This document shows, piece after piece, positions 8,861 through 61,753 of a stretch of 64,000 nt of DNA. Source of the stretch: Periplaneta americana (Eukaryota > Arthropoda > Insecta > Blattodea > Blattidae); contig NC_091119.1 of the NCBI RefSeq assembly GCF_040183065.1, positions 63,278,892-63,342,891 of the forward strand. Direction: 5' to 3'. Position numbers and translations under genes: made by a program. How positions within the stretch are numbered: position 1 is the stretch's first letter; each line of letters begins with the position of its first letter. The notes beneath the pieces are model-generated. The model searched no databases. It was not told where the DNA came from and saw only the letters and a program-made list of their open reading frames with translations.

Positions 8861-9741
8861 CAAAGCTCGGAACTTGGGGACTTGTGTCTTTGCACGTGAC
8901 TAAGCGACCGGACTTCAATGTCAACAAACTCCCGCTTCCAGCACGGAGGTACTGTCAGGTCTGCAACAAAAGTGGTTTCTGGCTGCAACAACATATTGAT
9001 AATATTATGGTAGGTTGAAACACGTAATTTCATAGCATATATATAATAAAAATAAACATGAGAAATATATCAAATTTACTGGTCTGCTGTGTACATTTTA
9101 TTACAGTGTATGACTATCTACATTCGAAGATTTTTCGGTAGCAGACTTAAAATACGGAATGTTTTCACTGTTACTGTTTTCTGTTCGATTTTCAGCAGTT
9201 GCTAGCTGATCTCGTATCTGAGAAAGATAAGTGTATCCTAATTTTTTCTAGAAAATAGTTTTCAATTAGTGTGTCACTAGTAGGACAAGCCCCTCTACGT
9301 TTCGATCCATGGCTATGGACAGACTTTTCTACAATTTGAGGGACTGCAATGCCTTTCAATGAATTTCGTTTCCAGCCTCTAGTTTGTGTGTGGCACAACT
9401 TACAAAATATAAACTCTCCATTCGAAAAAAATTATGTATCTCCTCCGAATTCTCCACGAAATTCTGTATCTAAGATTAAAAAAAATGTATTTTCAAACTT
9501 CTATAATACCCATTCGAATAACACGTATTTTCTAATTCCTCAAACAGACCATTTACCTTTAATTCTCTGAATGTCATTGGCTTCGACATAACAGTTTCTT
9601 CGTCCGTCTTCCTGTCATTAGTTGTGGCCACTTTCTTAGTACACACGACTGTCCCTGAGCACTTGCAGCGTGAGCTTTGTGTACGTTGTACCTGTAACCT
9701 TACTCATGCACACGACACAAGTCCCCAAGTTCCGAGCTTTG
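8861..9741. mobile_element. 880-bp TIR element, copy A (hAT-like)
   Basis: Inverted ends of about 28 bp starting CAAAGCTCGGAACTTGGGGA; the flanks are GTCATTAC (8853-8860) and GTCATTAG (9742-9749), 7 of 8 bases alike. The interior has no transposase. A 68-codon open frame (9192-9398, minus) is shared almost unchanged with copy B, but this reflects DNA identity and not a known domain. The TSD pattern nTnnnnAn fits hAT elements. Confidence 0.8.
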
Positions 9742-10363
9742 GTCATTAGACAGACATAATGTACCTGTCTCAACGAAATAATTTAATACGCACCAAAAGA
9801 AGATTAACCCTGCCCTGCACATAAGAGGGAAAATAAAAGGGACGCAGAAACCACCGCCCACGACCCTTTCGTTTACACCGCCTTATAAACAAACACACAG
9901 GAAGACTCTGTGCATCAGTAGTAGAATTTAGGCGACCAACGGGAGCCGAAAGTTCGCAAAACCAACGATGCCCACTTGATATAATCCGTCACTGATCTTC
10001 CCGCCTATTCTTGCCGCACAAATACATTACTGTCTCAGTCGGTGAAGGTGGAGTGGGGAATTAAGAGGTGGTATACAGAACTCAGTCGACTTATTTACGC
10101 CCAGGCCTGGATTAACCTAATATTTTTATTGTTAAAAGATCTAACTTTAGGAATGGCTGGTTAAAAATCTAGAAAATTATAGGTACTGTTAATTAACACA
10201 CACAAACATTGATGTGTTTTATTTAGGAGTACCTTTAAGTTATTATAACGTTGATTCAGGAAACAATTACAATTTCACAAACATCAGCTGCCTCTGTTTT
10301 CGTTTCCAATAATAAACATGTTTCTAGAGAGTGCAGGTTGTTTCTCAATGGCCAGGTTATCAG
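9742..10363. other. spacer between inverted element copies
   Basis: Part of the hAT composite interior. No coding signal. Near 10106 the sequence CAGGCCTGGATTAACC resembles a hAT end, but no partner was found. Confidence 0.45.
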
Positions 10364-11247
10364 CAAAGCTCGGAACTTGGGGACTTGTGTCGTGTGCATG
10401 AGTAAGGTTACAGGTACAACGTACACAAAGCTCACGCTGCAAGTGCTCAGGGACAGTCGCGTGTACTAAGAAAGTGGCCACAACTAATGACAGGAAGACG
10501 GACAAAGAAACTGTTATGTCGAAGCCAATGACATTCAGAGAATTAAAGGTAAACGGTCTGTTTGAGGAAATAGAAAATACGTGTTATTTCGAATGGGTAT
10601 TATAGAAGTTTGAAAATACATTTTGTTTTAAATTTAAGATAGAGAATTTCGTGGAGAATTCGGAGGAGATACATAATTTTTTTCGAATGGAGAGTTTATA
10701 TTTTGTAAGTTGTGCCACACACAAACTAGAGGCTGGAAACGAAATTCATTGAAAGGCATTGCAGTCCCTCAAATTGTAGAAAAGTCTGTCCATAGCCATG
10801 GATCGAAACGTAGAGGGGCTTGTCCTACTAGTGACACACTAATTGAAAACTATTTTCTAGAAAAAATTAGGATATACTTATCTTTCTCAGATACGAGATC
10901 AGCTAGCAACTGCTGAAAATCGAACAGAAAACAGTAACAGTGAAAACATTCCGTATTTTAAGTCTGCTACCGAAAAATCTTCGAATGTAGATAGTCATAC
11001 ACTGTAATAAAATGTACACAGCAGACCAGTAAATTTGATATATTTCTCATGTTTATTTTTATTATATATATGCTATGAAATTACGTGTTTCAACCTACCA
11101 TAATATTATCAATATGTTGTTGCAGCCAGAAACCACTTTTGTAGCAGACCTGACAGTACCTCCGTGCTGGAAGCGGGAGTTTGTTGACATTGAAGTCCGG
11201 TCGCTTAGTCACGTGCAAAGACACAAGTCCCCAAGTTCCGAGCTTTG
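10364..11247. mobile_element. 880-bp TIR element, copy B, inverted relative to A
   Basis: Nearly identical to copy A in reverse orientation, with the same CAAAGCTCGG inverted ends. Flanking octamers are GTTATCAG (10356-10363) and GTCATTAC (11248-11255), 5 of 8 alike and both of the nTnnnnAn form. Together with copy A it makes a large inverted repeat with about 880-bp arms and a 620-bp loop. Confidence 0.75.
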
Positions 11248-11593: not shown

Positions 11594-11822
11594 ACAATAA
11601 CAGTTATTGATACGTAGAAAGATTCTGTAACGTGTTTATTGTTTTTACAGATTCCCACTGAAAAAATGATTTGTTAACTAAACAGTCGGTTTCACAAATA
11701 ATGAAGAGAGAGAAATGGTTTCCCACAATACATAAAGTTTTGTGTTCCGCACATTTCGATACTAAGTGCATGTATTTTGTGAACGAGAGGAGACGTTTGT
11801 TGCCTAATGCAATAGCAACTAG
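11594..11822 (+). pseudogene. THAP-domain exon remnant of a P-like element
   Basis: A pyrimidine-rich tract and TTTTTACAG acceptor (11641-11650) precede an exon that reads, after a frameshift near 11659, [18 protein letters not shown] and then RRRLLPNAI. This is the second half of a THAP zinc finger: conserved Trp and Pro, the CSAHF block supplying the last Cys and His, and the LLPNAIPT-type end. The inverted homologue lies at 17030-17349 inside a P-like transposon. THAP domains bind DNA at the N-terminus of P-element transposases. The reading frame fuses by chance into the downstream LINE frame. The upstream part was displaced by the hAT at 7855-11585. Confidence 0.75.
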
Positions 11823-12096
11823 TGTTGTGCATTACAGGTGCTACGCTCTAATTAAACATTCAACATTGCATAATACAGCCGTCTGCTATACTCCGCGTCA
11901 GACCAGCAAGTTACTGCAGGCTTTATGGGACAACAAACCCTCACACCACAGCCACAGCCAAACAATCAGTAACAGTAATTGTCCAGGGGTGTGGGGGAGG
12001 GCAAGTACAGCAGAGCGTACTGGTTCCTTGTGTATACTATCCATTCTAAAAATATGTTTTCTTTTACATCACGCATACAATTTAATCCTGGACTGC

Positions 12097-13518
12097 AGCG
12101 AAATTTATAAACTTGTATTTGCTATTTGGGAAAAGGAAATTGTACCAGAACAATGGAAGGAGTCCATAATTGTACCTATTTTTAAAAAGGGGGACAAAAC
12201 CAACTGTGGTAACTTTCGAGGAATATCACTTTTGTTGACGTCGTACAAAATTTTGTCCAATATTCTTTTGAGGAGATTAACTCCGTACGTAGATGAAATT
12301 ATTGGGGATCATCAGTGCGGTTTTCGGCGTAATAGATCGACTATTGATCAGATTTTTTGTATTCGGCAGATAATGGAGAAAAAATGGGAGTATAAGGGTA
12401 CAGTACATCAGTTATTCATAGATTTCAAAAAGGCATATGACTCGGTTAAGAGGGAAGTATTATATGATATTCTTATTGAATTTGGTATTCCCAAGAAACT
12501 AGTTCGATTAATTAAAATGTGTCTCAGTGAAACATATAGCAGAGTCCGTATAGGTCAGTTTCTATCTGATCCTTTTCCAATTCACTGCGGGCTAAAGCAG
12601 GGAGATGCACTATCACCTTTACTTTTTAACTTCGCTTTAGAATATGCCATTAGGAAAGTTCAGGATAACAGGCAGGGTTTGGAATTGAACGGGCTACATC
12701 AGCTTCTTGTCTATGCAGATGACGTGAATATGTTAGGAGAAAATACACAAACGGTTAGGGAAAACACGGAAATTTTACTTGAAGCAAGTAAAGCGATCGG
12801 TTTGGAAGTAAATCCCGAAAAGACAAAGTATATGATTATGTCTCGTGACGGGAATATTGTACGAAATGGAAATATAAATATTGGAGATTTATCCTTCGAA
12901 GAGGTGGAAAAATTCAAATATCTTGGAGCAACAGTAACAAATATAAATGACACTCGGGAGGAAATTAAACGCAGAATAAATATGGGAAATGCGTGTTATT
13001 ATTCGGTTGAGAAGCTCTTATCATCCAGTCTGCTGTCCAAAAATCTGAAAGTTAGAATTTATAAAACAGTTATATTACCGGTTCTTCTATATGGCTGTGA
13101 AACTTGGACTCTCACTTTGAGAGAGGAACATAGGTTAAGGGTGTTTGAGAATAAGGTGCTTAGGAAAATATTTGGGGCTAAGCGGGATGAAGTTACAGGA
13201 GAATGGAGAAAGTTACACAACACAGAACTGCACGCATTGTATTCTTCACCTGACATAATTAGGAACTTGAAATCCAGACGTTTGAGATGGGCAGGGCATG
13301 TAGCACGTATGGGCGAATCCAGAAATGCATATAGAGTGTTAGTTGGGAGACCGGAGGGAAAAAGACCTTTAGGGAGGCCGAGACGTAGATGGGAGGATAA
13401 TATTAAAATGGATTTGAGGGAGGTGGGGTATGATGATAGAGACTGGCTTAATCTTGCACAGGATAGGGACCGATGGCGGGCTTATGTGAGGGCGGCAATG
13501 AACCTTCGGGTTCCTTAA
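12097..13518 (+). CDS. LINE reverse transcriptase (C-terminal two thirds of ORF2-like protein)
   Basis: The frame is open from upstream non-LINE sequence (from 11671) to a stop at 13518, about 474 LINE codons. Visible blocks: [14 protein letters not shown], the [10 protein letters not shown] block, [11 protein letters not shown] with the first catalytic Asp, [15 protein letters not shown], and [11 protein letters not shown] with the catalytic pair. Then follow a KYLGATVTN block, YGCETWTL, the [12 protein letters not shown] block and a basic [10 protein letters not shown] end. All catalytic residues are present. With no endonuclease and no ATG of its own it cannot act alone, but the intact frame suggests a recent insertion. 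It would copy RNA at a nicked target. RTE-like is my clade call from the tail and block order; a related clade is possible. Confidence 0.85.
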
Positions 13519-13551
13519 AAGCCATTTGTAAGTAAGTAAGTAAGTAACTGC
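12097..13551 (+). mobile_element. RTE-like LINE family A, best copy, 5'-truncated
   Basis: Covers the reverse transcriptase, thumb and C-terminal region of a non-LTR retrotransposon and a very short 3' end of GTAA repeats (about 13529-13551). A tiny 3' UTR with a simple-repeat tail is typical of the RTE clade. The 5' limit near 12097 is where LINE-like sequence begins; the endonuclease is absent. Other copies of the family: 6118-6892, 22211-22787, 39385-40497 (minus), 42557-42928 (minus). Confidence 0.85.
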
Positions 13552-14073
13552 TCACCCTATTTTGGACTCATTACTGCTCACCTGGGATATGTTGTTACTC
13601 CACGACAACGAGCTAGAAGTAGAATATAGAGTGGCGATCGCGCCGCCATCTTTGAAACTTTTGAACCTATGTCCGCCATGTATTAACTAGTCAAGAAGTG
13701 GGCGTGGTTCCTATAGCATAATACAGAAAGTGACTGTATAGAACATGTTGCAACTCACGAATCTTATTTTATATCGCATTAACTTATATATTCCATTTCA
13801 CTAGAGCGCTTTCAGAATAAGAAGACATATAAGGCGGAGCTAGTTCAGGCCGGTCTATGTCGACTAGCCAGTGACAGTGAAGCGGTGTTGCCTAGTTAAA
13901 TCGTCGCGAAGTCTCGCTGAAGCGTCGTGTATTAGTTTCTTTCTTGCGCGCACAATACTTATGGCTAGGAATGAATTTTAAGCTATCGCATTCGATAGAG
14001 CTCCGAATTCTGAATCCAACAGTACAAGAATGGCAATTGTATGTCAACTGGTTCGCGTGTTATCGCTTTAAGA

Positions 14074-14313
14074 CTAAACAGAGATATCCAACCTACAGCA
14101 TAGAACATATTTTGCTCTGAATTCCGTCTCTGTAAACGAAGATAGAATCTGTTTATTTTCAAATTCAGATGTGGACTGTTTTCTCTTGTGTGATGCGTAA
14201 CTTACCGTAACAATGTCTCTTGAAGGGATTGCAATTGGCTCTGGTGTTTCATCTGTTATACGCAAAGGGATAGTTCTACACTCACAGGCGAGGAGTATTG
14301 TATTTTTGTACAT
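14074..14313 (-). other. possible exon in P-like element, unknown product
   Basis: A minus-strand open frame reads ITDETPEPIAIPSRDIVT and is followed at once by GTAAGT (near 14200-14206), a consensus splice donor. The composition is protein-like and the strand matches the THAP exons of the same element, so it could be an internal transposase exon. I recognise no domain in it. Confidence 0.3.
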
Positions 14314-14994
14314 AATTTTTTTCAGTGCGTGTCTGACTGCAGAGACGTGTGGTTTAGAAGTGCATACGTTATCTCATATTCTCGGACAAGACAAAGAGAC
14401 AATTAAAATAGGTGGTATACTTGAATTTACCTCTCCTGGAAAATAACGCAAAACAAACGTGTTAATTATTTGTACAATTTTCAGAACCGTGTATTACTTC
14501 ATCGTACGATATTTTAAATACATTAGTAGTATGTGTTAGCAGTGCCATTGTAATAGAACGTGGAAAGAAGAAGAAAGCTGAGAATAATCATAGATACGAC
14601 TTTCACTTATACATGGTATAAGACGAAATATTGCATAAACATGAGATATTTGGATGATATTATAAACATAAACACTCCTGCCTCTTTTTCCATGAATTAT
14701 ACGAAGAGCATTAACAACATTTCCTTAAGAGCATTAGAAAACTTTATAAAATGAAGCACATTAACTACATTTCACTTTTAAAATAAATACAAGCATGCTA
14801 GGAACGAGAAGATTTTATAATTCCAAAACTCAATTTTTATTTTAAAAACCTTTCGTTATATATATATTACACTTTATATGATGTTTTCTAATATACAATT
14901 TTATCTTCAATATATTAACGATATTATTGGATTACGGTTTTCATATTCGCTTCTATACAACTACCTTCACTCGTATGTTTATATTGCCACAGGC

Positions 14995-15500
14995 CAGAGT
15001 GATAGAACATAGAATCCTGGACTTCTAGGTAGGTATAAGCTAGAGGATTAAATTAAATTAGATAGGCTTGATTTAATAAAGTAAAAGGAAGTAATCTTCA
15101 GTTTCAATATGAGTACTGAATTAGGCCTACATATGAACAGATATGCTTATATCCTTACAGCCGGATTCTTAGTCAGAATATGGAACACTGGCCCTCTAGA
15201 TATGTAAAAATTATATGATAAAATAAAATTAGATAGACTTAGTTTATCATAGAAAAATAAAATAATCTACAGTTCCAGTATGAGTACTGAATTATGTATG
15301 AACACACATTATGATTACGTTGCATTATAGCCAGATTCGTAACCAGAATGTAGAACCCTGGACCCCTAGGTACATGTATAAGCTAGAGAATTAAATTAAA
15401 TTATATAGGCTTCATTGAACGGAGGAAAAATAAAATACTTTCCAACTTCAATACTAAATTACGTATCTACAGATTTGTTTTCGTTTTGTTATCGCTAGAT
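14995..15500. repeat. three tandem units of about 170 bp
   Basis: Units begin near 14995, 15170 and 15345. Each contains an AGAA(C/T) ... CTGGAC/GCCC(C/T)CTAG block, then TAAATTAAATTA(G/T)ATAGGCTT, and ends near an AATATGAGTACTGAATTA block (degraded in the third unit). Divergence between units is high, so the array is old. It lies inside the P-like element. Confidence 0.7.
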
Positions 15501-15944
15501 TCTTAGGCTGCCCCTACAAACTGTACCTTATCTTTCCTCTGGAGAAATAAACAATAATAAATTCAGCTTTGCTGTACAAGGAAGTCTGAGTAAGAATTAA
15601 AACATTCTTTCTCAGACATTAGCAAAGTAAATTTCTACATATCTGTCACTTTATTTCGCAAGTCATTGACTCCAAGAGCTACTGATCTATGAAGCTAAGA
15701 AGTAATAAAAATTTAAGATGAGAATTACTTCAGTAAGAGTAATTATATTTAAACATTACACAAAATGAAGAAACAGGTCTCGACCCGCTCGCGCAGCGAG
15801 AGAGCTGCAACTGATATGTTCTGTCCTTATCTGTTGTCTCTGTCTTCCACGTCTCGTGCACCGTGCACTGTGTGACAACGTCGAACTGTTGCTAGCACTC
15901 AATTGGCTTAGGCCATATGCCTTCTTATTCTGAAACAGCTATAA

Positions 15945-16440
15945 CACTTCTTTATTTTAACAGATGTCAGAAAACCCATGCAGCAACAATTTATTCCATT
16001 CACCTTACGTTAACATCGAAGCTTAAAGATGTGGATACAAGTGGGCATGGTTCCTACAGGACGAGGCTAAAAGAGAATGTTTAGAATATTGCATCTTGTT
16101 AATATTAGTTTATATTGCAATAACTCACATATCCCATTTTGACCAGTGGGAAGGAAAAGCCACTCAATATTTTCTTCTACACATCTCACATTTACATTGA
16201 AGTTTTAAGATGTGGAACATGTAGGCTACAGAAGTGGGCGTGGTTTCTATAGGATGAAACGGAAAGGGTAGTCCAGGATAGTTGCATCTTATGAATCTTA
16301 TTTTATATCGCAATAACTCGTATATCTCATTTTTACTAACACTTTATTTTTAATAGTTGTCAGTAAACCCATACAGAAACATTTTATTCTATACATCTTA
16401 GGTTAGCTAGATTAACATTAAATCTTTTATATGTGGAACT
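15945..16440. repeat. two tandem units of about 200-250 bp, plus one distant copy
   Basis: Both units contain AAGATGTGGA, GTGGGC(A/G)TGGTT(C/T)CTA(C/T)AGGA, and a TATAT(T/C)GCAATAACTC block. A third copy of the core is at about 13698-13800 beside the other end of the P-like element in the same plus-strand orientation, so these are repeated subterminal modules. Confidence 0.65.
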
Positions 16441-16456
16441 AGAGTTACACAATTTT

Positions 16457-16617
16457 TTGGCGAGATGAGATGAGGCCGAGGATTCGCCATAGATTACCTG
16501 ACATTTGCCATACGGTTAGGGAAAACCTCTGAAATAACCTAACCAGATAATCAGCCCAAGCACAGCTCCAGATCACCAGACAAGTGAGTCTACCGACTGA
16601 GCTATGTTGATGGCTCT
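16457..16617 (-). mobile_element. SINE family 1 fragment, inverted
   Basis: On the minus strand the tRNA-like head (GCTCAGTCGGTAGACTC) and the body, including GGCGAATCCTCGGCC, match the family 1 SINE. The 3' tail beyond GAGATGAG is missing. It is degraded and nested in the P-like element. Confidence 0.75.
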
Positions 16618-16905
16618 ACAAAAATATACAATACATAGCAAGCAGTTGAATTATACAAAAACATACAGTGTACAGCAAGTAGATTAATTCAGTTTGAAAG
16701 CATAAACAATTCAATCAGTTGAGCTATACAAAAATATAGAATACACAGCAAGCCGATTAATTAAATTTAAATCATTAACAATTCAATCAACTAAGATATA
16801 CAAAAATAGATAATACATATGAAGGAGATTATTATTCAGTTTACAAGCATAAAAAATCCATGAGGTAAACTAAAAAATAAATGCAATACACAGCAAGCTA
16901 CAATT
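16618..16905. repeat. short tandem repeat, about 70-bp units
   Basis: Four degenerate units, each with TACAAAAATATA(C/G)AATACA(C/T)AGCAAGC, then GATTAATT and CATAAACAATTCAATCA(G/A). It begins directly after the inverted SINE. Confidence 0.7.
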
Positions 16906-17029
16906 GAGGGGCCCAGTGAAAAAGGAGCCCATGGCATATTCCTGTTGATTTTTACACGCTTTCAGCTGAAAACACGTTAAGCTCCAGTTTCGTCGGACAG
17001 ACATAGACTGCTTGAAGTCGTATTCATGT

Positions 17030-17349
17030 CAGTATGTTATACAAACCTGGATTCTCGTGGTGTTCTATTGAATTTTCCTCTGCCACAGAAGAGAAAGCTT
17101 CTTTGGTGGAGGCCTAGAAGTCTCTTTTGTTTTCAAATGAGCTGGAAACTTGAATATAGTTGGTATTGCATTGGGCAACAAACGTCTCCTCTCATTCACA
17201 AAATACATGTATTTTGTATCGAAATGTGCAGAACACAAAACACTATGTACTTAGGGAAACCATTTGTGTCTCTTCATTTGTGAAACCCACTGCTTAGTCA
17301 CCAAATAATTTTTCAGTGGGAATTTGTAAAAACAATGAACATATTACAG
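17030..17349 (-). pseudogene. THAP-domain exon 2 of P-like element
   Basis: On the minus strand, after a former acceptor mutated to TTTTTACAA, the text reads with frame changes QMKRHKWFP, then [26 protein letters not shown] and onward to a stop. W, P, CSAHF and the terminal AIPTIF box are hallmark THAP residues. One in-frame stop follows KWFP, and a frameshift or stop precedes it. The lost acceptor G, the stop and the frame change all indicate decay. Product if intact: the DNA-binding N-terminus of a P-type transposase. Confidence 0.75.
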
Positions 17350-17428
17350 AATCTTTCTATCAATTTATAATAACAGTTATAACTGTTATTATATGAATAG
17401 TAATACCAAATTATGGCAGACTACTTAC

Positions 17429-17499
17429 CTGAAATATGAAATATTCTTTGTTTTGTCGCTTCGGTTGCTACAGTTGTAAGACGAGCACACAAGAAGCAT
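17429..17499 (-). pseudogene. THAP-domain exon 1 of P-like element
   Basis: An ATG at 17497-17499 (minus) opens 23 codons: MLLVCSSYNCSNRSD and then KNISYF, followed by AG|GTAAGT, an excellent splice donor. The C-x4-C pair near the start is the first half of the THAP C2CH zinc site, and the ISYF block precedes the exon junction where THAP proteins have S-F-H/F-x-F-P. The intron then leads to exon 2. The two halves together provide the full C2CH ligand set, although exon 2 is broken. Confidence 0.75.
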
Positions 17500-17664
17500 C
17501 TTAATAGAGAATTTAAAAATCTCCACGTGCTTATACGCCTACTTCTGCTACAGCGAGATACTAGTTAAAACATGGCGGCCGGTAGTTCAAGCTAGTACCA
17601 CAAAGAGCGCTGATACAGACGTGAACACCACTCTATATTCTACTTCTAGCTCGTTGCTCCACGA

Positions 17665-18180
17665 CTTTACTCTCCTCCTTTCCTCGACTACTAGTAGGCT
17701 AATTAAAACTTTTGTCGTTGAATAGTCCAAGCTATTATTAGATTATTAGACTAAACTACAGAAGAAAATGAAGTCATCTGGGATGACGCGTCACCCCGGG
17801 TGCATTGCAGGGTTAACTAATACAATTAAAGAATAAAATTAGTATAACTCATCACAAATCGTATTGTTAGCACCAGTTTATAATAAACTTTTGTGGCTAA
17901 CGCCGTATGTTTAGCAGCTTCAGTTACATTGAATAAAAAGACAGTACGAAAGTATAAATACACGTTTAACATCATATTTCTTTCGTCGGAACTCAATATT
18001 CTTCTCCGGGTTCGCAATTTTTTAAGCATTCTGGCGACTTGTCCATTGTTTTGGTACGACAAGAAAGCAAACTAATTGAAGGCACTACACTGACTTATTC
18101 TTGCACAGCGATTTGAAGATGAACTAAACTAAACTAAAAACTGTTTGTATACAAAAAAACACGCAATATTTACACAAACT
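17665..18180. other. noncoding spacer
   Basis: AT-rich; no recognisable element apart from the 7-bp SINE target repeat ACAAACT at its right edge (18174-18180). Confidence 0.45.
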
Positions 18181-18432
18181 TTTATGGTTATTTTACGACG
18201 CTTTGTCAACATCTTAGGTTATTTAGCGTCTGAATGAGGTGAAGGTGTTAATGACGGTGAAATGAGTCCGGGGTCCAGCACCGAAAGTTACCCAGCATTA
18301 GCTCATACTGGGTTGAGGGAAAACCCTGGAAAAAGCCTCAACCAGGTAACTTGCCCCAACCGGGAATCGAATCCGGGGCACCTGGTTTCGCGGCCAGACA
18401 CGCTGACCGTTACTCCACAGATGTGGACTTAA
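18181..18432 (-). mobile_element. tRNA-derived SINE, family 3, inverted
   Basis: On the minus strand: B box GGATTCGATTCCCGG, then GCAAGTTACCTGGTTGAGG, the TTTCCCTCAACCCAG block and a tail with AGCGTCGTAAAATAACC. The flanking repeat ACAAACT occurs at 18174-18180 and 18433-18439. It abuts a family 1 SINE in the opposite orientation with only a few bases between their target repeats. Confidence 0.85.
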
Positions 18433-18448
18433 ACAAACTACAACAGCG

Positions 18449-18710
18449 GAAGCTACCAGCGTGGCTCAGTCGGTTAAGGCGCTTCCCTGCCGATCTGAAG
18501 TTACACTCGGGCGCAGGTTCGATTCCCGCTCGGGCTGATTACCTGGTTGGGTTTTCTCTGAGGTTTTCCCCAACCATAAGATGAATGCCAGGTAATCTAT
18601 GGCGAATCCTCTGCCTCATCTCGCCAAATACCATCTCGCTATCACCAATCTCATCGACGCTAAATAACCTCGTAGTTGATACAGCGTCGTTAAATAACCA
18701 ACTAAAAAAA
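18449..18710 (+). mobile_element. tRNA-derived SINE, family 1
   Basis: A box GTGGCTCAGTCGG and B box GGTTCGATTCCCG, body as in the 4094-4338 copy, A-rich end. The target repeat ACAACAGCG is exact at 18440-18448 and 18711-18719. Confidence 0.9.
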
Positions 18711-18719
18711 ACAACAGCG

Positions 18720-19141
18720 AATAGATTGGCAATCGACACTTTCAAATAGGGTAGTAATACGTTTGCACGAGCCCAGCGACAAGCGGTAACTCTCAATCAA
18801 GACGGGGTAGTGGTTTAAAGCTTACAATTCTCTACCTGCTAAGTTGCAATATACAAAGGTCCTATAAATATTTTTTTTCCACGAGCTATTGTTAAATGAG
18901 CAACATAGTTCCCTATTTCAAATGCACAGTAACTTGCTGGTCTGACACGGAGTGTAGCCGGTGCTTCTCCCAAAGCATGGCGGTGGACGCAAGCTTCAAT
19001 TTGTCCCTACTCTAAACTTCTGCGCAGCTTTGGCTAGCGGTTATTTAGTAAGTCTATGGTAGGGGCTGGGTGTGTCCTCGCGGTGACGTCACAGATTTAC
19101 AGCCGTGGCTTAGCGACCTTCACTTTCTCTTTAAAGCCTGT
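18720..19141. other. noncoding spacer with a direct-repeat marker
   Basis: No coding signal. Bases 19043-19060 (ATTTAGTAAGTCTATGGT) recur exactly at 19877-19894, flanking the inverted-repeat unit described next. Confidence 0.5.
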
Positions 19142-19871
19142 TATAGTCCGACCATCGGATCTGTGCCCCCGTAAGATATGCGAACTGAACCTTAATTCCT
19201 TTTCAGCCTCGGCAATTCCATTTCTCTCCCTGTATTCCTATTTCTCTCTTTTCTATCCTTCTCTCTTTCTCTCCCCCACTACTCACAATTTTGAGCCTTC
19301 TTGCGGGACAGTTTATTTGCACTTGCAGTCCAGTGTTGTCAACTCAACATGAATACTGTACGATGAAAGAGTAATGGAACGGAGAAAAATTCTCTCCGGC
19401 GCCGGGATTTGAACCCGGGTTTTCAGCTCTACGTGCTGATGCTTTATCCACTAAGCCACACCGGATACAACCCCGACGTCGGACAGAACTGTCTCTGATT
19501 GAGTTCCAACTCTTGGGTTCCCTCTAGTGGCCGCCCTCTGCACTACGTCATATATGAATACTGTAGCACGGAGTGGTGAAAGAAATATTATTAAGCAAGT
19601 AATAGCATTTTGCATAAGTCAATCAGCGTCATTAGACCTACTTAAATTAAATTATGAATAAGTAATAATTAACCTTACATTATTATAAGAAATATTCACG
19701 AGACATGACACTGTTTGACGGAAGTTTGGCAACATCCCTATTCGGCAAGGTTCGTGGCCTGCATTTTGACGTAGTGGGAGAGAAACGGGTGGAATGGGGT
19801 GAGTAGAGGCGTTAACTTTTCCAAGAACGACGACAGCGCTGAAGGGGCATAGATCCGATGGTCCGACAATA
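19142..19871. mobile_element. inverted-repeat element, 730 bp, class unknown
   Basis: Arms 19142-19169 and 19844-19871 are inverted copies (TATAGTCCGACCATCGGATC start) with few mismatches over 28 bp. The unit lies inside the 18-bp direct repeat at 19043-19060 and 19877-19894. It contains the tRNA-like cloverleaf at 19395-19465. It may be a MITE, or two nested events; the true ends are not settled. Confidence 0.5.
19395..19465 (-). tRNA. tRNA-Tyr(GTA)-like cloverleaf, possibly a SINE head
   Basis: The minus strand folds into all four stems: a 7-bp acceptor TCCGGTG/CGCCGGA with one G-T pair, a D arm GCTT/AAGC, an anticodon arm TCAGC/GCTGA and a T arm CCGGG/CCCGG with loop TTCAAAT. The 7-nt anticodon loop ACGTAGA places GTA (Tyr), but position 33 is C instead of the near-universal T. 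The variable loop is 4 nt and there is no intron, unlike typical eukaryotic tRNA-Tyr genes. The sequence after the acceptor is GAGAGAATTTTTCTCC, not a T-run terminator. I favour a well preserved tRNA-like SINE head or tRNA pseudogene over a functional gene. Confidence 0.5.
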
Positions 19872-19894
19872 TGAACATTTAGTAAGTCTATGGT

Positions 19895-20764
19895 TATGAA
19901 GGGACCTGTGAGAGCGATAGCGACCGACCGTCCACGGACCTTGACAAAAAACTAACGCTGACGGCAGAAACACAAAAGCCAAAGTTCAGTATCATTTGTG
20001 TTAAAATGCTGCGTTAAAAATGCTATGATATTACAAAATATCTTCTTCGTGCGCTAGATTCAAGTCTGAGGCTTACCTTACATATCTGATTATAACACTT
20101 TCAAACATTGTATACATTAAACATCACCATTATCATCACAGTCCAATTCCAATTACGTTATTTTTTATTGCTACTACAAAATAAACTAAATACGATTTTT
20201 TAAAACAAGATTAGTAGTATTTCTCAGAAGACCCTGTTTAATGCAAATGTTTGTTTTTTAATAAATAACTGTGAAATTCAACGCAATTTAAATACCTGAA
20301 ATTATACTGTATAGCTACTGATGATTTTTTCATGGTTTCTATATGAAATTGTTTCTCTTTTATTCACTGAGAATTTATCAAAGAAAATACTCTCTCACCA
20401 TTAACATTAACAACTTATGGAGTGGATGCAGGAGAGAAATTCTGCCAGTCTTAAAAGCTGGTGAGTCCTTGAAATATTTACACCATGATTGGAAAAAAAA
20501 ATCTCACTTGTCTTAGAAATATCAGTTTGATGAGGTTTCACAAATTTCAGAAAATTACAAAATTGGTTTAAGCCTTTGACGAAGCCCTAAAAATAAGGAT
20601 ATTTCTGATTTTTTTTTTAAAATCCGCGGATGCTGTAATTGGCTTAAGAAAGGAGATATGTCCGGGAAGAAAAGCACAAAAGTACAATGTTGTAATTTTA
20701 AATCTTGTTGAAATATAACTAGTTAAATTTAACTGAACGCAAACTTCAATAAATGAAACATATC

Positions 20765-20767
<3 letters not shown>
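19895..20767. other. AT-rich noncoding spacer
   Basis: No recognisable feature up to the poly(A) tract. Confidence 0.5.

Positions 20768-20830
<63 letters not shown>
20768..20830 (+). repeat. 63-nt poly(A) tract
   Basis: Pure A. It would suit the tail of a retroposed sequence on the plus strand, but no recognisable body precedes it and no target repeat was found. Confidence 0.9.
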
Positions 20831-20833
<3 letters not shown>

Positions 20834-20887
20834 GTATTTACAAAGAAACCTGCAAACATATCTATTTTTAAGGACGTTAATGATGGT

Positions 20888-21098
20888 GGACCACAAGGTA
20901 AGACCTAGCGGCTTTCATCTTCTTTATTACCGTACGTCAAGTATTTGAATTAGCACGAACTGTTACTCCAGCAGCACTCCTGGTCCGCACTGCAGTAGCA
21001 GGAAACTGAGGGTTTAAGATTATTTGTCTCTAGAAATATAGGGCGCTTGCTTTGAGAAATATTCATATTAATTTATTGCATTTTCATAACATAACATG
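20888..21098 (+). repeat. dispersed repeat R1, partial copy
   Basis: Shares GTAAGACC(T/TT)GCGGCTTTCATC, AATTAGCA(C/T)GAACT and AAACTGAGG(G/A)(T/A)TTAAGATTATTT blocks, in the same order, with the longer copies at 33965-35175 and 44617-46270. Confidence 0.75.
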
Positions 21099-21646
21099 AT
21101 TGCATTCTACCGCTTTCCTGCTTGCGCACTTTAGTCGTGTTTTCGCTTGACGTGTGACATGAGCATACAGTTACCAGCATACCGGACACATTACAAAATT
21201 AAATTATTTTCCACTGCTGTCGAACACAGATTTAAAAACTGTGCCTATGGTACTTTTTAAATTTCCATCCGACACTGCTCTTTTAAACTCTATCAGCGAT
21301 TTTCTCCTTTACTACTTCTTCTCTAGAGAGAATGTATTTTAAAATGTATGCTTTCAAAGCCGGTGTCTGTGATTAAGGTTTTTCGGGCTGCTATTACACT
21401 ATCAAAGTTCTTTGACAAAGATCTTTTATAAAATATATATTATGAAATATATGAAAGTGTAATGGGTTTTCTTTTATAAAAGTTTCTTTGATAAAAGATA
21501 TCTATGACATAAAACAAATATGGCGGAACGCGAACATAACTGGACTGTTGCTACCACGCTACCACAGAAATTCTGATATCGGAGTATGAAGGAAATGAAA
21601 TGTTGTAAATAGACACAAAATAATTTTATAATATAATATTAATATC

Positions 21647-21649
<3 letters not shown>
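21099..21649. other. noncoding spacer
   Basis: Contains short AT-rich inverted motifs such as TTTGATAAAAGATATC near 21490 and a GGGCTGCTATTACACTATCAAAG-like block near 21388 that may be a degraded MITE end. No partner could be defined. Confidence 0.4.

Positions 21650-21692
<43 letters not shown>
21650..21692. repeat. (AAT)n microsatellite
   Basis: Pure trinucleotide run directly upstream of the family 3 SINE. Confidence 0.95.
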
Positions 21693-21693
<1 letters not shown>

Positions 21694-22141
21694 GTCCATC
21701 GCTGTAGAGTAACGGTTAGCACGCCTGACTGTGAAACGATCGGATCCCGGTTCGGACAAGCTGGTCCACAATAAACCGGGAACGGAAACGACAACGAGGA
21801 AAGAAATATTGTTAAAATAAATGCATTTAAATGGGAGCATTCAAATTAACTTTCACGTTCACGTTCCCGTTCCAGGGATCCGGCAAGCTTCTCGTTAATT
21901 GTGAATGCTCACATTTAAATAAATTTATTTTAACATTATTTCCGTTCTCGTTCTCGTTGTCGTTTCTGTTCCTGGTTTATTGTGACCGAGTCTTTACGTG
22001 GTAGAGGTTTTTCCCCTCAACCCACTGAGAGCAAATGCTGGGTAACTTTTGGCGCTGGACCCTGGACTCATTTCGCTGGCATTATCATCTCATTCAGACG
22101 CTAGATAACTATAGCAGTTGATAAAGCGTCGTAAAGTAACC
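21693..22141 (+). mobile_element. SINE family 3 split by a foldback MITE
   Basis: The left part (21693-21766) has the tRNA-like head GTAGAGTAACGGTTAGCACG and B-box region. The right part (about 21985-22141) resumes with GTGGTAGAGGTTTTTCCCC and the body through AGCGTCGTAAAGTAACC. The middle is the hairpin element 21767-21984. The 3' end runs into an AAT microsatellite, probably grown from its tail. Confidence 0.8.
21767..21984. mobile_element. foldback MITE inside SINE
   Basis: Long inverted arms: CACAATAAACCGGGAACGGA onward, pairing with the complement that ends GGTTTATTGTG, over about 85 bp each side with scattered mismatches and rich in (A)ACG(A)GAACG-type motifs. A single strand would fold into one long hairpin. 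The target duplication could not be resolved. Confidence 0.8.
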
Positions 22142-22185
22142 AATAATAATAATAATAATAATAATAATAGTAATAATAATAATAA
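22142..22185. repeat. (AAT)n microsatellite at SINE end
   Basis: Imperfect AAT run with one AGT interruption. Confidence 0.9.
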
Positions 22186-22210
22186 TCTTTTATTCTCTGT
22201 AATTATAAAG

Positions 22211-22787
22211 CAAATATGAATGACAGTCGAGAGGAAATTAAACGCAGAATAAATATGGGAAATGCCTGTTATTATGCGGTTGAGAAGCTTTTGTCATCGA
22301 GGCTGTTCTCAAAAAACTTGAAAGTTAGAATTTATAAAACAGTTATATTATCGGTTGTTCTGTATGGTTGTGAAACTTGGACTTTCACTTTGAGAGAGGA
22401 ACAGAGGTTATAGGTGTTCGAGAATAAGGTGTTTAGGAAGATATTTGGGGCTAAGAGAGATGAAGTTACGAGAATGAATTTGCACAACGTAGATCTGCAC
22501 GCATTGTATTCCTCACCTGACATATTTAGGAATATTAAATCCAGTCGTTTGAGATGGGCAGGGCATGTAGTACGTATGGGCGAATCCAGAAATGTATAAT
22601 AGAGTGTTAGTTGGAGGGCAGAGGGAAAAGACCTTTGGGGAGGCCGAGACGTAGATGGAAAGATAATATAAAAATGGATATAATGGTAGAGAGTGGATTA
22701 ATCTTGCTCAGGATAGGGACCGATGGCGAGCTTATATGAGGGCGGCAGTGAACCTCCGGGTTCCTTAATACGCATTTGAAGTAAGTA
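22211..22787 (+). pseudogene. RTE-like LINE family A, 3' fragment
   Basis: Starts at the [19 protein letters not shown] block of the thumb region and runs to the stop and a short GTAA-type tail near 22787. It carries a premature stop after REEQRL (22411), a second frame break in RRW-like sequence near 22600, and small deletions. It corresponds to about 12945-13551 of the better copy. Confidence 0.85.
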
Positions 22788-35462: not shown

Positions 35463-36437
35463 GGCCCGATTGTATAAACCATTTAATCTTAGATCAGAGA
35501 TTAAATTGATCCTTGTTTCAGCTGAACTTGGAATTTTGTGTTGTATAAAGTCTAATCTGAGATTAATTTGTCCCAAACTAAAGTCAACTTTGACTGAAGA
35601 AATTTCTCCGATTAAGTTAGATGATCCAAGTTCAGTTATTTCTTTTCTGTTTGAAATATACGAGCGACAGATTGTGCAAATAAAATATCCATTATTATTA
35701 ATATTAATAGATATGATAGGTCCATTTATATATATTTCTTTCAATTTCTTGCCTTAATACACAAACAATCTCATATTTTATAAGGCTCTATCATGTTCAG
35801 CAGTATCTAATAACATAACCTATAATTATATTATGTTCATAACAACCATTAATTATTAATGGATATGTTAGGTACATTCATAAATTTTCAATTAACTGTA
35901 TTACTAAACGAAAATCGTTGTTTTATAAAGCTTTATTATGTTTAGCACTATCAAACATCACAACATGATAACAACTCGGAGAACAGTCAACCTTCTTCTT
36001 ATTGTTCGCCATTATTTACATTGCACAAAAAACCAGTGTCTCCAACAGAGTGTACGGAAAGTCGCCAAAAAGTAGTTGTAAAGTCTCCAGATTTCTCATT
36101 ATCAACAAAGAAAGATTAAATTTTGTCACTATAGGGTGCTGAAAAGGTCATTAAATCCCTATTTAAGCAATATAAAAGTTAAAAGAAATTGTTGTTGAAA
36201 AAGAGTTAAAGTCGCTAGATTGGCAACACTGAACAAACCTGTCCGCGCATCACGTATTTCACCTGTTTATGCGATGTTGCCAAATCCTTTTCACGTGAAC
36301 TTAGATTGCATTTGAAGCAAGGTAATTTGATCGCAGAAAAGATTTATACAATAGAAGAAGTGTCTGAACTCGGTTCACTTTTCGATCTTCGATCAAAGTT
36401 GATCTTTAGTCAGGGAGTTTTATACAATTGGGCCTTA
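35463..36437. mobile_element. Harbinger-like element, tandem copy 1
   Basis: Ends GGCCCGATTGTATAAACC and, in complement, GGCCCAATTGTATAAAAC, flanked by TTA (35460-35462 and 36435-36437): the TWA-type 3-bp duplication of PIF/Harbinger elements. Internal subterminal AGATCA/TGATCT motifs are inverted. Open frames of 94-95 codons on both strands overlap each other and show no domain, so I treat them as chance. Confidence 0.8.
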
Positions 36438-36440
36438 GAG

Positions 36441-37437
36441 GGCCCGATTGTATAAACCATTTAATCTTAGATCAGAGGTTAAATTGATCCTTGTTTCAGC
36501 TGAACTTGGAATTTTGTGTTGTATAAAGTCTAATCTGAGATTAATTTGTCTCAAACTAAAGTCAACTTTGACTGAAGAAATTTCTCCGATTAAGTTAGAT
36601 GATCCAAGTTCAGTTATTTCTTTTCTGTTTGAAATATACGAGTGACAAATTGTGCAAATAAAATATCCATTATTATTAATTTTAATAGATATGTTAGGTA
36701 CATTTATATATATTTCTTTCAATTTCTTGCCTTAATACACAAACATTCTTACATTTTATAAGGCTCTATCGTGTTCAGCAGCATCAAATAACATAACCTA
36801 TAATTATAGGCCTATTATGTTTATAACAACCATTAATTATTAATGGATATGATAGGTACATTCATAAATGTTCAATTAACTGTATTACTAAAGGAAAATT
36901 GTCGTTTTATAAAGCTTTATTATGTTTAGCAGTATCAAACACCATAACATGATAACAACTTGGAGAACAGTCAACCTTCTTCTTATTGTCCGCCATTATT
37001 TACATAGCACAAAAAAAAAAAAACAGTGTCTCCAACAGAGTGTAATACGGAAAGTCGCCAAAAAGTAGTTGTAAAGTCGCTAGATTTCTCATTATCAACA
37101 AAGAAAGATTAAATTTTGTCACTATGGGGTGCTAAAAAGGTCACTAAATCCCTATTTAAGCAATATAACAGTTAAAAGAAATTGTTGTTGAAAAAGAGTT
37201 AAAGTCGCTAGATTGGCAACACTGAACAAACCTGTGTAACATGGTCCGCGCATCACGTATTTCACCTGTTTATGCGATGTTGCCAAATCCTTTTCACGTG
37301 AACTTAGATTGCATTTGAACCAAGGTAATTTGATCGCAGAAAAGTTTTATACAATAAAAGAAGTGTCTGAACTCGGTTCACTTTTCGATCTTCGATCAAA
37401 GTTGACCTTTAGTTAGGGAGTTTTATACAATTGGGCC
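36441..37437. mobile_element. Harbinger-like element, tandem copy 2
   Basis: A direct, same-orientation repeat of 35463-36437 at a period of 978 bp. It begins right after TTAGAG and is followed by another TTAGAG (37438-37443). It differs by scattered substitutions, a longer A-run near 37010 and a small insertion near 37222. Sharing TTAGAG at both right edges suggests one insertion that was then duplicated together with 6 bp of flank. Confidence 0.85.
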
Positions 37438-37443
37438 TTAGAG

Positions 37444-54628: not shown

Positions 54629-56610
54629 CTTCTTCTTCTTATTTGGTATTACAGCCCAGGTGGGCCTTAACCTCCTCTATGGCTCTCTTCCATCCTTCTC
54701 TATCCATCGCCAACTCCCTCCAATTCCTTATTCCTAATCTATTCACATCCACTCGTACACAGTTCCACCATCTTGTTCTCGGTCTTCCTCTTAATCTGGT
54801 TCCATCTGGGTTGTTATTGAAGACAATCTTCACTTTCCTTGTTGTTTCCATCCTTGTGACGTGTCCCAACCATCTCAGTCTTTGACATCTTATGTGCGCC
54901 TCCAAATCCGATTCCTTGTACAGTTCGTATATCTCATTATTATATCTGGCTCTCCATCCATCCACTGTTTCAATTGCTCCGAATATCCTTCTTAAGATTT
55001 TCCTCTCAAAAACTGCTAGTTCTTTGCATGTATTTTTATTCAGAACCCATGTTTCTGTACCATATGTTATAATGGGTCTTATTAGGGTTTTGTAAATCTT
55101 GATTTTGATTTCTCTAGATATTATTTTATTTTTAACAATTGCTAAAAGTGAATAATATGCCCTGTTAGCCAGATTTATTCTTCTTTGTACCTCATTCCTT
55201 AGGTCATTATTTGCTGTCAATATTGATCCGAGATATGTAAATTCTTTTACTTTTTGAAACTTATATGTTCCCATTTTAACTTCCTTCACTTGATCATTTT
55301 GTCTTTTGGTGACTGACATAAATTTAGATTTCTTTGTATTTATTTTAAATCCCAGTTTCTGAGTTTCCTTATCCAATGCTATCAAGGCTTCTTCAACATC
55401 TTGTATCCTTCTTCCGGTGATGATGACATCATCCGCATAGCCTAAAATCTGTTGTGTCTTATTAAAAATAGTTCCATTAATTTGGACTTCTGATTTTATT
55501 ATTGCAATGTGTAGGGCTATATTAAACAAGAGAGGTGCCAGCCCATCTCCTTGCCTGGTTCCTTTCTCCAATTTAAAATTTTCAGTTGTGATCTTTCCTA
55601 ATTTCACTGTTGCCTTTGGTTCAGATGACACAATTCTGCATACATTTATCAGTTTCCTTGGAAAACCGAGTTGATGCATGTGTCCCCATATTGTCCTAAG
55701 TATTAGATTATCATATGCAGATTCAAAATCTAAAAAGAGGCAGTGTAAATCGATGTTCTGTTCCCAGCATTTTTCTGTCTCTTGTCTCATTATGAATAGC
55801 TGGTCCACCGTCGATCTTCCCGGTCTGAATCCGCACTGATAGTCCCCTACTATTCCTTCCATATATGGTAACATTTTTTTATATAGGATGTTAGTCAACA
55901 TTTTATAAACTGTACACAGTAAAGTTATTGCCCTATAGTTCTCACATATCATATTATCACCCTTTTTATGTATTGGAACTATCATCCCTGTTCTCCACTC
56001 CTCAGGAATAGTCTCGGTTACCCATATCCTTTGTATCAAATATAATATTGTCTTTTTAAGTTCTTTACCACCCTTTTTAATCATTTCTGTTGTTATGTGG
56101 TCACACCCAGGAGCCTTGTTATTCTTCAACTTATCTATTGCCATTTCCACGTCGATCATCTCAGGTGGTTCTACTAAAGGTTCAGCTGTATATACTTCTT
56201 GTTCCATTTGCTCACTTTCTCTTTCATTTCTTAGTTTAAAGTGGTCTTCATAATATTCTTTCCATCTTTCCAAAGCTTGCGCTTCATTACTAATAATTTC
56301 TCCTTTACTGTTTTTAATCAGTTTAGTTTGAGGTTTAAATCCTTTCTTGAAGTAATTAACCTCCTTATAAAAGTTTCTTGCATTTTGATTGTTATATTCT
56401 ATACTTATATTGCTCAGTTTCTCATGTAGCAATGCTCTCTTCTTATTTCTAAACATGTGGTTTGCTTCCTTTCTTTTATTTTTATACTCTAATTCATTTT
56501 GCCGAGTATATCTTCCTATCATCTTCTTATATGCTTTGTTTTTCTCTTCTAATATCAATAAGCACTCTTCATCAAACCAGTCATAACGCGTTTGTCTACC
56601 TTGTGCTTAT
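54629..56610 (-). mobile_element. RTE-like LINE family B, 5'-truncated insertion
   Basis: Flanked by AAACGAGTGTGT (54617-54628) and AAACGCGTGTAT (56611-56622), a 12-bp target duplication with two changes. The 3' end (left) closes with AAGAAGAAG-type repeats just after the stop, a short tail typical of RTE elements. The 5' truncation falls just upstream of a WFDEEC block in the linker that follows the endonuclease. Confidence 0.85.
54639..56558 (-). CDS. LINE reverse transcriptase, uninterrupted 639 codons
   Basis: It lacks an ATG at the start, because the frame is open from the 5' truncation. Order: charged linker (residues 1-130), MAIDKLKNNKAPGCDHI (about 139-155), PEEWRTGMIVPIHKKGD, QCGFRPGRSTVDQLF, FLDFESAYD with catalytic Asp277, TRQGDGLAPLLFNIAL, GYADDVIITGR with Asp376-Asp377, then FTYLGSILT, YGTETWVL, QRLRWLGHVTRM and RLRGRPRTRWW. 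All reverse transcriptase catalytic residues are intact and no stop interrupts the frame, so the insertion is young or the frame was spared. It would copy its RNA at a nick, but the endonuclease is missing. It is distinct from family A, with many differences in every block. Confidence 0.9.
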   Translation of the reverse strand: MILEEKNKAYKKMIGRYTRQNELEYKNKRKEANHMFRNKKRALLHEKLSNISIEYNNQNARNFYKEVNYFKKGFKPQTKLIKNSKGEIISNEAQALERWKEYYEDHFKLRNERESEQMEQEVYTAEPLVEPPEMIDVEMAIDKLKNNKAPGCDHITTEMIKKGGKELKKTILYLIQRIWVTETIPEEWRTGMIVPIHKKGDNMICENYRAITLLCTVYKMLTNILYKKMLPYMEGIVGDYQCGFRPGRSTVDQLFIMRQETEKCWEQNIDLHCLFLDFESAYDNLILRTIWGHMHQLGFPRKLINVCRIVSSEPKATVKLGKITTENFKLEKGTRQGDGLAPLLFNIALHIAIIKSEVQINGTIFNKTQQILGYADDVIITGRRIQDVEEALIALDKETQKLGFKINTKKSKFMSVTKRQNDQVKEVKMGTYKFQKVKEFTYLGSILTANNDLRNEVQRRINLANRAYYSLLAIVKNKIISREIKIKIYKTLIRPIITYGTETWVLNKNTCKELAVFERKILRRIFGAIETVDGWRARYNNEIYELYKESDLEAHIRCQRLRWLGHVTRMETTRKVKIVFNNNPDGTRLRGRPRTRWWNCVRVDVNRLGIRNWRELAMDREGWKRAIEEVKAHLGCNTK

Positions 56611-61260: not shown

Positions 61261-61753
61261 TGAGATCATAATAGTTCACATGGCGTAATACTTGTATGGG
61301 TGATGATGATGATTAACTCAGGTAGGTAGAGGTGTTTGGGAATGCTTCTTGTTGTTGCCGTAGCACAATGGAACATAAGCATAGTGTGTTTGTTTTGGTT
61401 TCTCCACACCCACACTGCATATGCAAGGAATTTTACGTCATCAAGTACGTACAGTTAAAATAAAAATATTACTTGCTGACAAAAAATTCAGAATATTATT
61501 TTTACAAAATATGATAATTTTGGGACTTTTTTCCACAAAATACTGAAAATATGCTACATTGCTTGCTCAATAGTCTATTATATATAGGAACACCTAAAAT
61601 ATGCAAAAATATGTACAATTAATTCTGAATATTCGTCACTACATTCGTTCAAAACATGTAAGAAATGATTTTGTATGACTTGAAAATGGACAGTAAAAAT
61701 ATGCAGTTGCATACGAATTCTCACCCTATTAATATGCCTGTGAATGCAATGAC
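61261..61753. other. AT-rich noncoding spacer
   Basis: No feature recognised up to the repeat ORF. Confidence 0.45.

Follow-up and report, generated by a model that had tools for sequence, protein, structure and literature searches.

A probable P-superfamily DNA transposon family with a two-exon THAP remnant in the genome of Periplaneta americana

The window, a 64,000-nucleotide stretch of the Periplaneta americana genome (assembly GCF_040183065.1, contig NC_091119.1, forward-strand positions 63,278,892 to 63,342,891), contains a DNA transposon at positions 13606-17656, which the original prediction described as a decayed P-superfamily element outside flies that might recently have been moved in trans. 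The element spans 4,051 bp, about half of which is a foreign insert. It is bounded by terminal inverted repeats (TIRs) of 29 bp at 13606-13634 (plus strand) and 17628-17656 (minus strand), which pair with 29/29 identity, and is flanked by an 8-bp target site duplication (TSD), CTCCACGA, at 13598-13605 and 17657-17664. Inside the ends lies a subterminal inverted repeat at 13661-13691 (plus strand) and 17560-17590 (minus strand), the core of which (13673-13691 on the left) matches at 18/19 positions; the best of 200 Markov-shuffled pairs reached 15/19. When the window was scanned for the TIR with up to 3 mismatches, no matches were found besides the two ends, and 100 shuffles gave 0. When inverted pairs combined with 8-bp duplications were sought across the whole window, four matches were returned: the element and three others, which lie within one large palindrome.

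Next to the right end, a THAP domain is encoded on the minus strand in two exons. Exon 1 (17429-17499, 71 nt) starts at an ATG, at nt 158 counted from the right end, and is followed by the splice donor GTAAGTA. The intron (17324-17428) has an intact donor GT and, in the window copy, the acceptor AA, and exon 2 with its linker (about 17065-17323) is interrupted in this copy by an in-frame stop at 17251-17253. The spliced product, with X at the stop, matched the Pfam THAP profile at 2e-17 and 64.1 bits (cut-off, 23.9). The two defects, the exon 2 stop and the acceptor, were counted among 11 other aligned copies of the family. None of the 10 copies that keep the relevant stretch has the stop, and the acceptor is AG in seven, AA in three and deleted in one; therefore, copies free of these two defects exist. 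The predicted anatomy, comprising perfect 29-bp TIRs, the 8-bp TSD, the 18/19 subterminal repeat and the two-exon THAP domain, is confirmed in the sequence, and the window copy is indeed decayed.

The whole span had been read as a single element. This proved right for both ends, but positions 13804-15941 are occupied by a separate, nested insert of 2,138 bp with a TA duplication. The ends of the insert are inverted and imperfect (20 of the first 24 positions match; the sequence around them is TTTCAGAATAAGAAG), and it holds three 171-bp tandem repeats. It is missing at the junction in five printed copies (L009, L010, L011, L012, and L014), and among 20 fetched copies, element nt 197/198 is followed by nt 2337-2339 in 18; as for the exceptions, L020 resumes at nt 2388 and L026 has both kinds of repeat. 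Without the insert and one TA copy, the element measures 1,911 bp, the same size class as its relatives, and consists of a copy-conserved left end of 198 bp (13606-13803, plus strand), the interior of the 1.9-kb element (15942-17156, plus strand), which contains repeats of 193 bp and 72 bp as well as SINE-like sequence at 16467-16561, and the THAP-bearing right end.

To place the element in its family, we scanned the host assembly (3.23 Gb, 91 contigs) and found 89 matches to the 29-bp ends with no more than 2 mismatches, plus 68 to a 30-bp variant when 1 mismatch was allowed; the reversed-pattern control gave 0 in both cases, and both end forms start with CAACGAG. Searches with the left and right ends scored 40 places out of 810 first-look candidates and 40 out of 270, respectively. 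Twenty of the 40 left-end loci were fetched, and 16 of these were two-ended copies, with TSDs matching at 8/8 positions in 13 and at 7/8 in 3. Ten of the 16 are 1,792 to 1,979 bp long, four are 1,095 to 1,097 bp long, and two are longer. No end pair was found under the 29-bp test in L017, L025, L026 (a 1.07-kb copy), or L027, and three of these carry the 30-bp form. Across both end forms, 20 paired target sites revealed a palindromic preference, GT....AC (symmetrized counts, G1 in 24/40 and T2 in 26/40); this set counts the window insertion three times (window, L009, and L013) and leaves out L015, the right end of which was too mismatched. An older group of the family, at 83 to 87%, retains a recognizable THAP exon 2 in all eight loci examined (L050 to L052 and L054 to L058). 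TIR patterns of 29 and 19 bases gave no match in viral contigs, a 26-base TIR pattern gave no match in a set of genome contigs, and a THAP protein search of viral contigs returned 35 pattern-matching stretches, none of which was confirmed.

Several loci considered as transposase sources were rejected. L070 lacks a THAP match and contains a frame that looks mariner-like by eye; L069, covering 3 kb inside the family member at C7:66548060, showed by eye no P-like frame among the listed open reading frames; L025 has a mariner-type helix-turn-helix and, by eye, BEL/Pao-like frames; and L027 carries a pogo-like transposase frame. The latter lies within a family copy (L027:2111-4141, 676 aa; PF03184, with HTH_psq under the cut-off). 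A comparison by eye of TIR ends with the listed P cores gave one near pair, C8:148208760 and C8:148212621, with the core outside the element. A Mutator-type reading, prompted by a frame in L026, was likewise dropped, as that frame lies outside the element and has no Pfam match. THAP relics about 47 kb apart were seen at C5:151887493-151981535, and irregularly spaced clusters of THAP relics with family ends at C4:145559769-145717324 and C4:155356600-155512235, which suggests that the C5 and C4 arrays are repeated segments containing the family.

The window locus itself has a composite history. L009 and L013 have the same insertion point as the window element, with flanks that are 95 to 99% identical over kilobases. 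The octamer is the same at the same site in L013 and matches at 7/8 positions on the right side of L009. The right flank is 97.3 to 97.4% identical to these loci over the first 1,488 bases and 95.4 to 97.8% in further blocks; on the left, 59 bp matched, and the match resumes past a LINE at about 12097-13546 that is absent from both L009 and L013. Window positions 11931-22433 form a segment common to two C11 loci at 95 to 99% identity, a duplicated carrier that is interrupted by the LINE in the window. Outside the element, positions 11615-11821 (plus strand; 87% to the element) hold the remains of another THAP exon 2 together with some of its intron; this relic probably belongs to the carrier segment and begins a 618-aa frame that continues into a LINE reverse transcriptase. 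A THAP relic is also found 308 to about 490 bp beyond the left end at C11:133013401, C11:120302243, C15:114245372, and C5:151840297, which equals the window arrangement once the LINE is discounted; of these four, the flank comparison covers the C11 pair.

Together, these alignments indicate that one insertion was copied together with its surroundings to at least two other loci. The common insertion point and flanks of L009 and L013 rule out a single recent jump as the origin of the window locus. Since the insertion was duplicated with its surroundings, the pristine ends are no proof that the window copy jumped recently, and the proposed recent move in trans fails for this locus, although it may hold for the family. 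An age bound (4% per site at 95%, from zero changes at 74 end and duplication sites) was set aside because it assumes a single independent insertion. By parsimony, the nested insert would have entered the window copy after the duplication, because L009 and L013 lack it.

Because the window element keeps THAP only, we searched the host genome for the remaining domains of a P transposase. For PF21787, the N-terminal RNase H part, all 150 scored of 2,964 candidates were above the cut-off, with several frames of 700 to 865 aa; first-look candidates numbered 1,252 for PF12017 and 1,629 for PF21789, of which 150 each were scored. As a THAP query, we used the unmodified family exon 2 from L057 and compared the best 150 of 2,215 candidates. 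One member, at C17:7307917-7318494, has a family end on either side (with 1 and 2 mismatches), the two being 10,578 bp apart. On its minus strand, reading inward from the THAP end, THAP exon 2 (C17:7317964, 85% identical to the query from L057 and without a stop) is followed by the P helix-turn-helix PF12017 (C17:7315989-7316114; 67.7 bits, cut-off 23) and then by the P RNase H C-terminal domain PF21789 (C17:7314793-7314894; 68.1 bits, cut-off 24; open frame of 320 aa), which is the order found in P transposases. The order, strand, and enclosing ends of these domain hits suggest that they form one gene.

The same association was found outside the family. Seven of the 150 THAP matches are followed, on the same strand and within 3 kb, by a listed PF21787 core. 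These seven exons are 54 to 57% identical over exon and linker and lie 615 to 1,341 bp upstream of the P core. A listed PF12017 match lies within 3 kb of eight THAP matches, namely, the seven P-linked loci and the family member at C17:7317964; on the opposite strand there were none within 10 kb, and a shifted control (n = 200) gave a mean of 0.025 and a maximum of 1. The family thus combines the marks of the P superfamily, namely, varying 8-bp TSDs, ends of about 30 bp starting with CA, subterminal repeats, and a terminal THAP domain, joined in the C17 member by domain hits to PF12017 and PF21789. The original prediction took an invariant TSD, or family copies coding for a non-P transposase, as signs against a P element; TSD sequences vary between the insertion sites of the family, and the sole long member placed by domain hits has P domains. 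We conclude that the window feature is very probably a non-autonomous element belonging to a family of P-superfamily DNA transposons. The C17 member and the seven P-linked relatives support the assignment to this superfamily, and a P-superfamily element outside flies can be called likely. The family is new, and of an already known kind of transposon.

A number of observations weigh against this conclusion. Pfam searches of the window element, covering the minus-strand frames whole and the plus strand via chosen open stretches, did not detect a P transposase core: the three minus-strand frames (X at stops; the second without its THAP part) gave no domain, and ten chosen open stretches from both strands all scored under the cut-offs. 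In the C17 member, the PF12017 match is partial (positions 32 to 73 of 73, in a frame of 61 aa), no PF21787 core is present in this stretch among the best 150 of 2,964 candidates, and the P domains may instead be a nested foreign P fragment. We picked 20 THAP matches that lie beyond the family or at its margin; for 13 of them, including the closest full-length non-family match, C12:35596571 (57%), no P core was listed in the vicinity. The nearest Protein Data Bank (PDB) chains to the THAP domain are the cellular proteins THAP1 and THAP2, and no P transposase chain was met up to an E value of 10. Lastly, the termini and target sites also fit another superfamily. hAT elements have ends that follow the rule YARNG and the target nTnnnnAn. 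The CAACG ends of the family conform to the former and GTnnnnAC, from the 20 paired sites, to the latter as well as to P, and we therefore weighed seriously the possibility that the element is a hAT-superfamily transposon, the transposase of which has THAP in place of the BED finger and for which 8-bp duplications would also be expected.

The target pattern is not specific, because Galileo, P, and 1360 show a similar consensus: PMC4168063 describes GTANTAC as the Galileo pattern and, for P and 1360, a tendency toward ANAGT...ACTNT. hAT C-terminal domains (PF05699) are common in the host, with 31,016 first-look candidates, and downstream of one family THAP match, at a distance of 5.8 kb and in the same orientation, lies a scored hAT domain (C10:135387252 and C10:135393052). 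However, none of the 150 THAP matches has a scored hAT domain (150 in all) within 3 kb, compared with 7 of 150 near the 150 scored P cores; this absence is weaker than it appears, because 150 of the 31,016 hAT candidates were scored. The helix-turn-helix and RNase H C-terminal matches between the family ends on C17 are of the P type, and on balance we regard a hAT origin as improbable. Alternatively, the exons might not be the remnant of a transposase gene but a piece of a cellular THAP gene of the host that a transposon of whatever kind picked up. The closeness to THAP1 and THAP2, and C12:35596571 with no listed P core beside it, would agree with capture, as would the length of exon 1, since human THAP1 intron 1 likewise follows c.71 (a c.71+9 variant is reported in PMC4049367). 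Against it stand the seven non-family THAP exons upstream of P cores, the position of the ATG, 158 nt inside the end, as expected for the start of a transposase, and the acceptor side of the split, which is identical in the P-linked loci examined. We therefore consider capture very improbable.

The P-linked loci L067, L062, L064, L065, and L068 (one lineage), L073, and L074 have an AG acceptor with the identical codon and phase before exon 2, and in L073 the P core lies within an open frame of 771 aa. Upstream of L073, the 560 bp covered by L075 and L076 showed no recognizable exon 1 or element end, and in L071 (800 bp around C12:35596571) the exon 2 acceptor is at the identical place, with no exon 1 and no family end. 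As the acceptor is common to P-linked loci and the THAP1 intron is alike, the split by itself is no sign of gene capture. These data suggest that the split at codon 24 is common to the P transposases of the host, where the acceptor side was observed, and to cellular THAP1.

For a non-autonomous P-superfamily family, a mode of spread can be proposed by analogy with P-element biology. A P-type transposase produced elsewhere in the genome would bind the subterminal regions of both ends via THAP and cut at the 29- to 30-bp inverted repeats, and the element would then insert into GTnnnnAC-like targets, duplicating 8 bp. In the P superfamily, this cut-and-paste reaction is GTP dependent and leaves 17-nt overhangs. 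The product of a C17-type gene could move the short copies. After the insertion at this locus, the element and its flanks were copied to at least two other loci, and the TA-type insert would have entered the window copy later. Truncated P repressors act in flies. The retained exons by themselves raise the speculative and rather unlikely possibility that the short copies amplified via a spliceable THAP-only gene inside one end, the product of which would bind ends without cutting and serve as a high-copy built-in repressor. If true, it would operate in a genome hosting a very large, partly open set of P transposases.

Further features were noted elsewhere in the window. A second element of 2,387 bp at 8861-11247 is foldback-like, with inverted arms that are about 890 bp long and 98.4% identical, ends CAAAGCTCGGAACTTGGGG, and the 8-bp duplication GTCATTAC. 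A tRNA-Tyr gene lies at 19394-19465 (minus strand), a direct tandem duplication of about 1 kb (93.8%) at 35463-37443, a 655-aa open frame that by eye is non-LTR reverse transcriptase-like at 54639-56606 (minus strand), and a 633-aa open frame with Ser/Thr-rich repeats over a minisatellite at 61733-63634.

A literature search of limited reach for P elements in cockroaches or termites met no paper on such a family. The present work adds a documented non-autonomous P family. The host genome, with its many P domain candidates, is a good place to look for P-element diversity outside flies. Among known systems, the Drosophila melanogaster P element resembles the family in its 8-bp duplications, 31-bp perfect inverted ends, subterminal inverted repeats, and THAP N terminus (PMC7776569). 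The two differ in end sequence; in the cockroach family, an intron at codon 24 divides the THAP domain, and the copies read are non-autonomous, with internal 193-bp and 72-bp repeats. In zebrafish, Pdre2/THAP9 is likewise P type outside flies, with 8-bp TSDs and subterminal inverted repeats, but has 13-bp ends of other sequence (sections of PMC10983969). Galileo, a P-superfamily element of Drosophila, shares the target consensus GT...AC (PMC4168063), but its inverted repeats are very long and its duplications are mostly of 7 bp. Closest in kind are the P-MITEs and AgaP of Anopheles gambiae, with 27- to 31-bp ends, 8-bp TSDs, and unrelated middles according to parts of PMC1562414; the family described here differs from them in its host and in that its short copies retain the THAP exons along with the ends.

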